Below, piece after piece: positions 4,345 through 7,552 of a stretch of DNA of 35,456 bases. Both the position numbers and the translations under genes were made by a program. The notes beneath the pieces were generated by a model. It did no database searches, was not told the DNA's origin, and worked only from the letters and a program-made list of their open reading frames with translations. Within the stretch, counting starts at the first letter, position 1; each line of letters starts with the position of its first letter. The stretch lies in the NCBI GenBank assembly GCA_945903635.1, contig CAMDOT010000035.1, forward strand, positions 1 through 35,456. Direction: 5' to 3'. This DNA comes from Rhizobium sp. Q54. Its GTDB lineage: Bacteria > Pseudomonadota > Alphaproteobacteria > Reyranellales > Reyranellaceae.

Positions 4345-4752
4345 TTACTTGCGTTCAATCAGCTCGATCTTGTAGCCGTCGGGATCCTCGACGAAGGCGA
4401 TCACCGTCGTGCCGAACTTCACCGGACCGGGCGCGCGCGTGACCTTGCCGCCCGTCTTGGTCACCTGGTCACAGACGCCGTAGACGTCGGGGACGCCGAC
4501 CGCGAGGTGACCGAACCCGCTGCCGAGCTCGTAGGGCTTGGCCTGATCCCAATTGTAGGTCAATTCCACGGCGCAGTGCTCCGTCTCCTCGCCGTATCCA
4601 ACGAATGCGAGCGTGTACTTGCCGTCGGGGACCTCGCGCTTGCGGAGCAACTTCATGCCCATCGGGCCTGTATAGAACGCGATCGACTTGTCGAGGTCCA
4701 GAACGCGGATCATCGTGTGCAGCATGCGATAATTGCTTACGGTGTCGGGCAT
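4345..4752 (-). CDS. gloA: Lactoylglutathione lyase (glyoxalase I)
   Basis: This 135-residue VOC-fold metalloenzyme converts the methylglyoxal-glutathione hemithioacetal to S-lactoylglutathione. Length equals that of E. coli GloA. The four metal ligands are in place: His12 (LHTMIRV), Glu63 (AVELTYNW), His82 (FGHLAV) and Glu130 (DPDGYKIELIE). It most likely uses Ni or Co, as bacterial glyoxalases without the long insert do. A strong SD (AGGGGAGA) precedes the ATG and lies at the end of fabZ, only 11 nt upstream, so gloA is probably the last gene of the bamA-fabZ transcript. Its place directly after fabZ is unusual: lpxA normally sits here. Confidence 0.95.
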   Translation of the reverse strand: MPDTVSNYRMLHTMIRVLDLDKSIAFYTGPMGMKLLRKREVPDGKYTLAFVGYGEETEHCAVELTYNWDQAKPYELGSGFGHLAVGVPDVYGVCDQVTKTGGKVTRAPGPVKFGTTVIAFVEDPDGYKIELIERK

Positions 4753-4763
4753 CTCTGTCTCCC

Positions 4764-5240
4764 CTACCTGTCGCGAATCATGGCGGCGAACGTCGCTTCC
4801 GCAGCGAGCTTGCCCTCGACAATCGCCTTGCCGGAGAATTTCCAGACATTGGCCCGGCTCTGGATCTTCTCGACATGAAGTTCGAGGCGATCACCGGGTA
4901 TCACCGGCCGGCGGAACCGCACACCATCGATCGACATGAAGTAGACCAGCTTGCCTTCGGATCCAGTGCCGAACGTGGACACCACCAGGACCGCGGCCGT
5001 CTGTGCCATCGCCTCAACGATCAGGACACCCGGCATCACCGGCTCCGACGGAAAATGGCCCTGGAAGAACGGCTCGTTGATGCTGACGTTCTTGATCCCG
5101 ACGGCGCTGCGGTCGAGCTGCATGTCGACCACACGGTCGACCATCAGCATCGGGTAGCGATGCGGGATCATCTGCAGAATGCGCTTGATATCCACAGAGG
5201 TGGCGGCAGCGGGACTCGCCTGGTCGGTCTGAATATTCAT
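4764..5240 (-). CDS. fabZ: (3R)-hydroxyacyl-ACP dehydratase FabZ
   Basis: The 158-residue hot-dog-fold enzyme dehydrates 3-hydroxyacyl-ACP during fatty-acid elongation. Catalytic His62 and Glu76 lie in FFQGHFPSEPVMPGVLIVEAMAQ; the conserved IPHRYPMLMVDRV stretch is at residues 25-37. The frame is open further upstream into bamA, but the ATG at 5240 gives the expected length. It starts 17 nt after the bamA stop. In most Gram-negatives lpxD lies between bamA and fabZ, and lpxA follows. Here neither is present, so FabZ cannot share its transcript with lipid A enzymes and probably serves only phospholipid acyl chains. Confidence 0.96.
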   Translation of the reverse strand: MNIQTDQASPAAATSVDIKRILQMIPHRYPMLMVDRVVDMQLDRSAVGIKNVSINEPFFQGHFPSEPVMPGVLIVEAMAQTAAVLVVSTFGTGSEGKLVYFMSIDGVRFRRPVIPGDRLELHVEKIQSRANVWKFSGKAIVEGKLAAEATFAAMIRDR

Positions 5241-5257
5241 GTCGCCGCCATCGCCGT

Positions 5258-7552
5258 TCAGAACCGGGATCCAAAGCTGAACCGGAAGTTCTGGGTCTTG
5301 TCCCAGGGCTCGTAAACCACCGGGAAGGTGTAGTCCACGCGGATCGGGCCGAACGGCGAAATCCATTGAATGCCGAAGCCCGTACCGACCCGCATCAACG
5401 AATTGTCGAGAATCGACGCGCCAAAACTGGCCGCCTGATTGCCCCATAGCGAGCCGGTATCGACGAACGCCTTGCCAAGAATACCAATTTCCTTGGGGAC
5501 GCCGAAGATCGGGAAGCTGAGTTCGGTCGTGGTCGTATAGAAATACTGGCCGCCCAGCGAGTCGGTCGTCGCGGCATCGCGGGGACCAACACCGCCGACG
5601 GCGAAGCCGCGCAGATTGTCGCCACCGAGGAAGAAGAGGTTGTTCAGGCGGATGTAGGTATTGTTGTACGGCAGCACGACGCCAGCCGAACCGCCAACCG
5701 TCAGAACGACATCATCAACGATGCTGTGGAAGTACGCCGCATCGGCAGACGTCCGAACGTACTGCTCGGTGCCGATTCCGCCGGCAACGGCAATCGTATT
5801 ACGCAGCAGCCAGCCCTTCGTCGTAAGGATTCTCGAATCTCGCGTATCCCAGGAGATCGTCTCGGCAATCTCGGAAACCGTCGAGTAACCCGCCTGCGCC
5901 TGCACAATGTACGAGGCCCACGGCATCACGTTGTAGATGTTCGTCTGCCGCAAGGTATATCGGACAATCTGCCGGGTGTGCTCACTGTAGGCCCAGCCGG
6001 TGCGCAGCGCGAAGCCGAGGCTGGCATCGCTGTAGTTGGCAACCGCCTGCCGGTTGTTCGACGTCCGGAAAATATCAAAGCCGGCCACCATATTGCGGTC
6101 GAGGAAGTACGGTTCCGTGAAGCTGAGGTCGATATTGGTGCTCAGGGTACCCAGCGAAAGGCCGAGACGAATTTCCTGTCCTTTGCCGAGGAGATTGCGC
6201 TCCCGCAGTGAAATATCACCCACGATACCGGCAGTGGTCGAATAGCCGGCGCCAAACGAAATATCGCCGGTGCTCTGTTCGACGACCTGGACCTCGAGAT
6301 TGGTCTTGTCGGGCGCCGAGCCAGGCGCCGCGGAAACGTCAGCCTTTTCGAAGAAGCCAAGGGCCTTCAGTCGCTCCTGGCTGCGCTTCAACTTGGCAGA
6401 GCTGAAGGCGTCGCCTTCGGCAAGCCGGAACTCGCGCCGGATGACCTTGTCCAGCGTGCGCACATTGCCGGAAATGTTGATGCGCTCGACATAGACGCGA
6501 GGACCTTCCTGGATCTCGAAAGTCACGTCGACCGTCTTCAGATCCTTGTTGCGTCGGATGTTGGGACGAACTTCGACGAACGCATACCCCAAGGACCCGA
6601 CCACATCGGTCAGGGTAGCGACCGTCTTCTCGATGTCACCGGCGTCGAACCAGTCGCCCTCGCTCATCAGGAGATAGCCCTTCAGGACATCGGGATCGAG
6701 GCCCTGAAACCGGGTCAAGATGTCGACGTCACCGAACTTGTATCGCTCCCCTTCGCTGATCGTGAAGGTAATGAAGAACCCATCACGGTTGGGAGACAGT
6801 TCGCCGACCGCCGACACCACGCGGAAGTCGGCATAGCCCTCCGAAAGGTAGAATTTGCGCAACAGCTCGCGGTCGAGGTTCAAGCGATCCGGATCGAAGC
6901 GATCGTCCGAGGACAGGAAGCGCCACCACGCACTCTCAGAGGTTCGAATTTTGCCGCGCAGCGTTCCGTCGCTGAAAGCCTCGTTGCCGACGAAAGTGAT
7001 GCGTTTGACACCCGTGACGTCACCTTCGTTGATCTCGAAGACGAGATCGACGCGCCCTTGCTCCAGCTTGATGATCTTGGGTTCAACCGATGCGTTGTAG
7101 CGACCGCCGCGCCGGTAAATGGTCAGAATACGCTCGACGTCGGCCTGTACGCGCGCGCGCGTGAACACCTGCCGAGCGCGCGACTGCACCTCGTCGCGCA
7201 GCTTGTCGTCGTCGATCTTGTTGTTCCCCTCGAAGGCGACACGATTGATGATCGGATTTTCCGTAAGCTTGACCACCAGGGTCGAGCCTTGCATGTCGAT
7301 CACGACGTCCGAGAACAGCCCCGTCCCGAACAGGGCTTTCAGCGAGCGATCGGCCGCCGCCGGATCGTAAGGCTGGCCAACCTTGAGCTGCAGATAAGAG
7401 CGGATCGTCTCCGGCTCGGATCTGACATTGCCCTGAATCTGAACAGCAGTAATCGTGCCTCCCGCAGCAGCGCCGCGCTGGGCGTGCGCCGTCGAGGCGA
7501 ATGCGAGAACTGCTGCAACGGCCAGTATGGCCCAACGAACGATCAAGCTCAC
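5258..7552 (-). CDS. bamA: Outer-membrane protein assembly factor BamA
   Basis: BamA folds and inserts beta-barrel proteins into the outer membrane. The 764-residue protein begins with a signal peptide ending FASTAHA, followed by five POTRA-like repeats (to about residue 400) and a C-terminal 16-strand barrel. The barrel has the LRGF loop-6 motif and ends in phenylalanine (FRFSFGSRF), the beta-signal. The open frame reaches back to a TTG at 7651, but this would place the signal sequence about 34 residues inside. The GTG at 7550-7552, with GGAAGG eight bases upstream, puts it at the N-terminus and is preferred. The gene follows rseP, as is usual, but lpxD is missing after it. Confidence 0.95.
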   Translation of the reverse strand: MSLIVRWAILAVAAVLAFASTAHAQRGAAAGGTITAVQIQGNVRSEPETIRSYLQLKVGQPYDPAAADRSLKALFGTGLFSDVVIDMQGSTLVVKLTENPIINRVAFEGNNKIDDDKLRDEVQSRARQVFTRARVQADVERILTIYRRGGRYNASVEPKIIKLEQGRVDLVFEINEGDVTGVKRITFVGNEAFSDGTLRGKIRTSESAWWRFLSSDDRFDPDRLNLDRELLRKFYLSEGYADFRVVSAVGELSPNRDGFFITFTISEGERYKFGDVDILTRFQGLDPDVLKGYLLMSEGDWFDAGDIEKTVATLTDVVGSLGYAFVEVRPNIRRNKDLKTVDVTFEIQEGPRVYVERINISGNVRTLDKVIRREFRLAEGDAFSSAKLKRSQERLKALGFFEKADVSAAPGSAPDKTNLEVQVVEQSTGDISFGAGYSTTAGIVGDISLRERNLLGKGQEIRLGLSLGTLSTNIDLSFTEPYFLDRNMVAGFDIFRTSNNRQAVANYSDASLGFALRTGWAYSEHTRQIVRYTLRQTNIYNVMPWASYIVQAQAGYSTVSEIAETISWDTRDSRILTTKGWLLRNTIAVAGGIGTEQYVRTSADAAYFHSIVDDVVLTVGGSAGVVLPYNNTYIRLNNLFFLGGDNLRGFAVGGVGPRDAATTDSLGGQYFYTTTTELSFPIFGVPKEIGILGKAFVDTGSLWGNQAASFGASILDNSLMRVGTGFGIQWISPFGPIRVDYTFPVVYEPWDKTQNFRFSFGSRF

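Follow-up and report, generated by a model that had tools for sequence, protein, structure and literature searches.

The window analysed here, a stretch of 35,456 nucleotides from contig CAMDOT010000035.1 (Rhizobium sp. Q54, assembly GCA_945903635.1), carries bamA, fabZ and gloA in a tight row facing gltA and gltX, with none of the lipid A genes lpxD, lpxA, lpxI and lpxB around fabZ. The named relatives of its BamA are Reyranella and Rhodospirillales or alphaproteobacterial metagenome bins, from which we infer that the genus is Reyranella. Based on gene content, the outer membrane of this genus is predicted to lack lipopolysaccharide (LPS) and likely contains ceramide-type sphingolipids instead (we put the probability of this reading at about 0.7), and it likely does without the usual machine for LPS delivery (Lpt).

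We searched for lipid A synthesis enzymes in the window's own genome (G000, a draft of 384 contigs, 91% complete) and 24 same-genus genomes (25 in total, 4.4–9.8 Mb, including the single-contig genomes G016 and G022, which are 100% and 97% complete, respectively), with 15 other genomes of the class and one order-mate (G025) for comparison. Neither LpxC nor LpxB, nor LpxA above its cut-off, was found in any of the 25 genus genomes or in the order-mate, which is only 81% complete and has one partial LpxA match below the cut-off. Among the 15 other class genomes, LpxC is matched above the cut-off in 13, LpxB in the same 13 and LpxA in 11 (G031 and G037 lack a match for all three, G027 and G035 for LpxA alone). 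The preliminary description of the window had considered selective loss or relocation of the lpx genes; the search supports loss, and at the level of gene content it confirms that the absence is real and is not a relocation. The predicted outer membrane without LPS puts Reyranella on the list of LPS-free lineages.

The same block was compared in close relatives. BamA of the window is 75–97% identical to that of 24 out of 25 returned loci, the last one (L040) being distant (29%). In the 20 loci where bamA, fabZ and gloA are all present, their order is identical and tight, with a similarly short gap and no lpx genes (20/20); the other five are four loci that end inside the block, and L040. Four of the matched loci (L021, L037, L038 and L039; BamA 76–87% identical to the window's) come from public bins titled Asaia bogorensis or Devosia equisanguinis, and these titles are probably wrong. 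In two LpxC-positive outgroups the lpx genes are in place: the single-contig G034 reads dxr-rseP-bamA-ompH-lpxD-fabZ-lpxA-lpxI-lpxB facing gltA-gltX, and G039 has lpxD-fabZ-lpxA-lpxI-lpxB between bamA and gltA. LpxD and LpxA of both genomes and LpxB of G034 score above NCBIfam cut-offs, LpxB of G039 scores above the Pfam cut-off, and LpxI of both is clear yet below the strict cut-off (250 and 238 bits vs 400). None of the window's genes was found on the 12-kb stretch around lpxB (L093) of a third LpxC-positive genome, G026. The conserved place that the preliminary description ascribed to the lpx genes in most alphaproteobacteria is thus seen in G034 and G039 and not in G026, and the arrangement is common, not universal. 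In G034, an OmpH-family (Skp) gene separates bamA from lpxD (L094:6086-6682); it too is absent from the Reyranella block, the rest of the genome not having been searched for it.

As a possible substitute for LPS, the preliminary description had pointed to glycosphingolipids, as in sphingomonads, and had suggested a search for serine palmitoyltransferase (Spt). Spt was found above the 500-bit cut-off in all 25 genus genomes, in G025 and in the LPS-less G037, and in none of the other 14 genomes. The window's own genome encodes it at G000:C7 (654.6 bits), and the nearest solved chains are bacterial Spts. The genes upstream of spt code for an AMP-binding acyl ligase (5' end cut by the contig edge), a reductase of the NAD-dependent epimerase type and an acyl carrier protein; those downstream code for a phosphoesterase of the calcineurin type, a protein of 408 aa that matches no Pfam family and a major facilitator superfamily (MFS) protein. 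Named by order, domain and fold, the operon reads aasR-cerR-acpR-spt-phosphoesterase-bCerS-MFS. All five ceramide genes are found in 9/9 Reyranella loci examined. The model of the 408-aa protein (pLDDT 85.5) has tandem GNAT N-acyltransferases as its best PDB matches (E 9e-15), and relatives of this protein are found near lptG in nine of 10 non-Reyranella Spt loci (the contig ends in the tenth). It is a putative counterpart of Caulobacter cerS (CC_1154), judged by order, domain and fold and not by comparison with CC_1154 itself. The calcineurin-type phosphoesterase (L048:3937-4896 and relatives) is found in 9/9 Reyranella spt loci and in 8/10 others. We considered the MFS gene beside bCerS as a new exporter and rejected it, since a relative also occurs, at a distance of a few genes, in G181, a genome from another genus of the family, so the gene is not specific to the Lpt-less state.

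Other parts of sphingolipid loci are missing. A Tam41-like head-group gene was found in 0/26 Reyranella genomes vs 28/30 other Spt-positive genomes (at most the best 34 candidates per genome were scored, in positive genomes too), and the nine Reyranella spt loci lack a second LptF/G, a fatty-acid hydroxylase, CDP-alcohol transferases and a gene at the position of CC_1161.

A further locus of the window's genome, G000:C110 (L049, 564-10990), carries the gene of a highly reducing type I polyketide synthase (PKS) of 2497 aa with the domains KS-AT-DH-MT-ER-KR-ACP. Next come genes for a BioF/SPT-like enzyme, a short-chain dehydrogenase and a CDP-alcohol transferase, and the locus appears to specify a polyketide-based pathway to a sphingoid-like phospholipid. 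Among the matches listed, the pair of PKS and BioF/SPT-like enzyme is found in 12 loci of 11/25 Reyranella genomes (the PKS is partial at contig ends in some), and in four of these loci both the dehydrogenase and the transferase are beside the pair. This BioF/SPT-like enzyme was rejected as the main sphingoid synthase because it is below all three SPT cut-offs and its pairing with a PKS was confirmed in those 11 of the 25 genomes.

To place the genus in the class, we used an even sample of 289 alphaproteobacterial genomes, each at least 90% complete. LpxC is present in 250 of them and was not found in 39. With Spt called at E <= 1e-110 (43 genomes, 42 of them above the cut-off; at most the best six candidates per genome were scored), 26 of the 39 LpxC-less genomes contain Spt as compared to 17 of the 250 LpxC-positive ones (odds ratio 27, Fisher p 2e-16, relatedness not corrected). 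The 26 genomes span 11 families, and three of these (f27, f68 and f81) also have LpxC-positive members, which suggests that LpxC was lost several times independently.

The search for LptF/G and LptD covered the 39 LpxC-less genomes and 10 others. Each matches in 14 of the 15 other class genomes of the first comparison. All 23 LpxC-less Spt-positive genomes outside Reyranella keep LptD and LptF/G (two LptF/G domains each; G233 has three), and in 17 of them the LptF/G pair lies within 15 kb of spt. In Reyranella, LptF/G was found in only 1/26 genomes and LptD in 1/26, each on one contig of doubtful origin. The LptF/G genes of G181 lie between the phosphoesterase and bCerS, where they are absent in 9/9 Reyranella loci, and its genus still has LptD, LptF/G and the Tam41-like gene. 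Genomes that contain both LpxC and Spt (17 in the sample) have four LptF/G domains in 6/6 tested cases, which we read as two pairs.

A tree was built from 63 LptF and LptG domains, taken from 13 of the 23 LPS-less genomes, six pairs of genomes with LpxC only, 12 pairs of the six genomes with both LpxC and Spt, and the LptF of the window's own genome. For LptF and LptG alike it separates an LPS-type clade from an spt-type one, with support of 100/99 for both LptF clades and of 100/100 and 98/97 for the LptG clades. All 13 LPS-less genomes have an spt-type pair, including four with a pair that is not near spt. The 'linked' pairs of G106 and G163 were labelled via a neighbouring Tam41-like gene and not via spt, and the tree program warned of two long branches and of unusual composition in 11 rows. 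The spt-type LptFG of LPS-less genomes fits the proposal for Caulobacter in PMC11324152, where a second LptC/F/G set is taken to be the exporter of phosphosphingolipids.

These observations would be consistent with the following course of events. The ancestor shared by Reyranella and the genus of G181 likely produced LPS as well as phosphosphingolipids and had a separate LptFG exporter pair for each. The first to disappear, before the two genera split, would have been lipid A and the LPS-type LptFG. Later deletions, confined to the Reyranella line, would have removed lptF2-lptG2 and the phosphate head-group genes from the sphingolipid locus, and that line would also have lost LptD. Ceramide synthesis would be left intact after the loss of the Lpt bridge and the head-group module: Spt would join serine to an acyl-AcpR supplied by AasR, the GNAT-fold bCerS would attach the second acyl chain, and CerR would reduce the ketone. 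With or without another head group, the ceramide would then reach the outer membrane by an Lpt-independent route, and the outer leaflet would likely be ceramide-rich, perhaps with hopanoids or another head group. In its full form (a large-genome Gram-negative genus with neither LPS nor Lpt bridge, ceramide-type lipids brought to the outer leaflet independently of Lpt, and an alphaproteobacterial rule of one LptFG pair per exported lipid, LPS-type or sphingolipid-type, to which Reyranella with neither pair is the exception), this proposal is tentative, and we give it slightly less than an even chance.

Several observations weigh against the reading. The absence of lipid A synthesis genes from 25 genomes is that of LpxA, LpxB and LpxC, with LpxD, LpxK and WaaA not searched genome-wide, and LptA, LptC and LptE were likewise not searched genome-wide in Reyranella. 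The sole LptF match in the genus is in the window's own genome, on a 4-kb contig (G000:C350, L088; 4020 bases), and the sole LptD match is at a contig end (G013:C20, L089); the same region has genes for an autotransporter and a DsbD-like protein, and the contamination of genome G013 is 6%. The composition of the latter contig is not clearly foreign, and its LptD stands as an exception with contamination unproven. The names of CerR, AasR, AcpR, bCerS and the Tam41-like gene come from gene order, domain or fold rather than from a side-by-side comparison with the Caulobacter proteins. In LPS-less G037 and G151, Lpt is retained although the Tam41-like gene is missing, so loss of the one need not accompany loss of the other. 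Finally, 13 of the 39 LpxC-less genomes lack Spt, and ceramides that are not exported might serve the inner membrane only. As for the LptF on G000:C350, we rejected it as Reyranella's own: the contig (GC 0.607) has a tetranucleotide distance of 0.24 vs a maximum of 0.20 for 31 4-kb pieces of the same genome, lptF adjoins a transposase, and its product is 45% identical to the homologue of LpxC-positive G036 as compared to 27% for that of G181 and falls in the LPS-type clade. It is likely a contaminant of the bin, with horizontal transfer as the alternative. Among the 13 LpxC-less genomes without Spt, seven keep LptF/G and LptD, and LpxC may simply have been missed in their assemblies; the other six (0.7–1.7 Mb) lack both.

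Those six small genomes also bear on what we consider the most serious alternative, although an unlikely one, namely that the outer membrane has no LPS and no substitute for it but is a phospholipid bilayer with Bam proteins and hopanoids, while ceramides are used in the inner membrane, for storage or for signalling. These LpxC-less, Spt-less genomes are likewise without LptF/G and LptD, and the lack of the Tam41-like gene in Reyranella and the hopanoid genes reported for it (PMC12583986) would suit such a membrane too; but the presence of Spt throughout the genus, the five ceramide genes in every locus examined, the class-wide association of Spt with LpxC loss and genomes that are not reduced all argue against it.

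The two other explanations keep LPS in the cell. That the lpx genes lie elsewhere in the genome, or fell into an assembly gap, would be conceivable for a draft such as G000, but we rejected it, and its probability is negligible, given that none of the three enzymes was found in 25 genomes including the two single-contig ones (at the sensitivity of these profiles) and that the block is unbroken in every complete locus. It is very improbable that the enzymes of lipid A synthesis, and an Lpt that exports the product, have diverged beyond the reach of the profiles. Profiles can indeed miss members, as LpxC-positive G027 and G035 show with no LpxA above the cut-off, but here five families (LpxA, LpxB, LpxC, LptD and LptF/G) would have to go undetected together in a single genus, although the same profiles match 11 to 13 (Lpx) and 14 (Lpt) of the 15 other class genomes.

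In the window itself, the lpx genes were described as missing around fabZ, and both the gene coordinates and the two short junctions hold (see table), with all five genes scoring above curated family cut-offs; the gaps leave no space for lpxD, lpxA, lpxI or lpxB. For fabZ, a longer open reading frame (ORF) to 5447 reflects an upstream start, the NF000582 match beginning at residue 86 of the long ORF; for gltX, the TIGR00464 match runs from residue 108 of ORF 26-1747, and the start at 341 was read from the sequence. In the preliminary description FabZ would be left with phospholipids only if the lpx genes were absent genome-wide; ceramide acyl chains would also draw on it. Beside dnaE, the window (19524-22765, minus strand) encodes an ABC ATPase and two FtsX/MacB-type permease ORFs, likely lolD and lolC/lolE, and lipoprotein export to the outer membrane thus appears to be retained.

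Table. Genes and junctions of the bamA-fabZ-gloA block and its surroundings in the window
Feature	Position	Strand	Evidence or remark
gltX, glutamate--tRNA ligase	about 341..1747	+	TIGR00464 484.7 bits, cut-off 290
gltA, citrate synthase, convergent with bamA-fabZ-gloA	2803..4101	+	TIGR01798 757.8 bits, cut-off 485
gloA, lactoylglutathione lyase	4345..4752	-	TIGR00068 155.8 bits, cut-off 120
fabZ-gloA junction, 11 nucleotides	4753..4763	-	lpxA-lpxI-lpxB occupy the position in G034 and G039
fabZ, 3-hydroxyacyl-ACP dehydratase	4764..5240	-	NF000582 200.1 bits, cut-off 113
bamA-fabZ junction, 17 nucleotides	5241..5257	-	ompH and lpxD occupy the position in outgroup G034
bamA, outer-membrane assembly factor	5258..7651	-	TIGR03303 764.9 bits, cut-off 297
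rseP, upstream neighbour, order kept	7673..9052	-	TIGR00054 284.7 bits, cut-off 148
dxr, upstream neighbour, order kept	9083..10291	-	TIGR00243 444 bits, cut-off 316

LPS and its transport are regarded as near-universal and essential in Gram-negative bacteria. LPS-free sphingolipid makers are already known, and those tested here keep LptF/G and LptD. Outside the class, the myxobacterium Sorangium cellulosum is reportedly a Gram-negative without LPS and with sphingolipids. In the open-licence literature, covered mainly as listings and the beginnings of abstracts, we found no earlier statement of an LPS-free sphingolipid maker without the Lpt bridge or of a number of LptFG pairs that tracks the exported lipids, and among items on Reyranella or Enhydrobacter with sphingolipid, lpxC, LPS or fatty-acid data, none of an LPS-less ceramide state. 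Enhydrobacter aerosaccus, whose type strain was cultured in PMC12583986, is placed there in the Reyranellaceae. A taxonomy paper from 2020 describes sphingolipids in the class as apparently restricted to Sphingomonadales (PMC7179689), and PMC11324152 states that the route of sphingolipids to the outer membrane is unknown. A ceramide-making genus without the Lpt bridge would make this transport question testable by exclusion, and the LptF/G tree lends phylogenetic support to the Caulobacter idea of a second LptF/G pair that exports sphingolipids. For chemotaxonomy, the prediction is that Reyranella has no 3-hydroxy fatty acids of lipid A and does have sphingoid bases.

Of the two kinds of cell that the preliminary description proposed, one with a sphingolipid substitute as in sphingomonads fits the gene content better than one like Anaplasmataceae, although neither fits in every part. 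Small LPS-free alphaproteobacteria of the latter kind resemble Reyranella in having no LpxC, LptF/G or LptD (bar the two contig exceptions in Reyranella), but the six sampled here have much smaller genomes (0.7–1.7 Mb vs 4.4–9.8 Mb) and no Spt, which all 25 Reyranella genomes contain. Sphingomonas and Zymomonas make sphingolipids and lack LPS (PMC11324152), and Reyranella is like them in being without LpxA, LpxB and LpxC and in having spt-acpR-cerR-aasR-bCerS in a ceramide operon; it differs in the Lpt components, which are kept in the 23 other LpxC-less Spt-positive genomes (some of them probably sphingomonads). The same paper gives the phosphosphingolipid locus of Caulobacter crescentus (CC_1168-CC_1152) as containing aasR, cerR, acpR and spt, with cerS after lptG2. 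All five ceramide genes have counterparts in Reyranella, among them the one with the GNAT fold, whose relatives lie close to lptG in other Spt loci; unlike Reyranella as predicted here, Caulobacter also makes LPS, and it has at the CC_1161 position the Tam41-like gene needed for ceramide phosphoglycerate, which Reyranella lacks.

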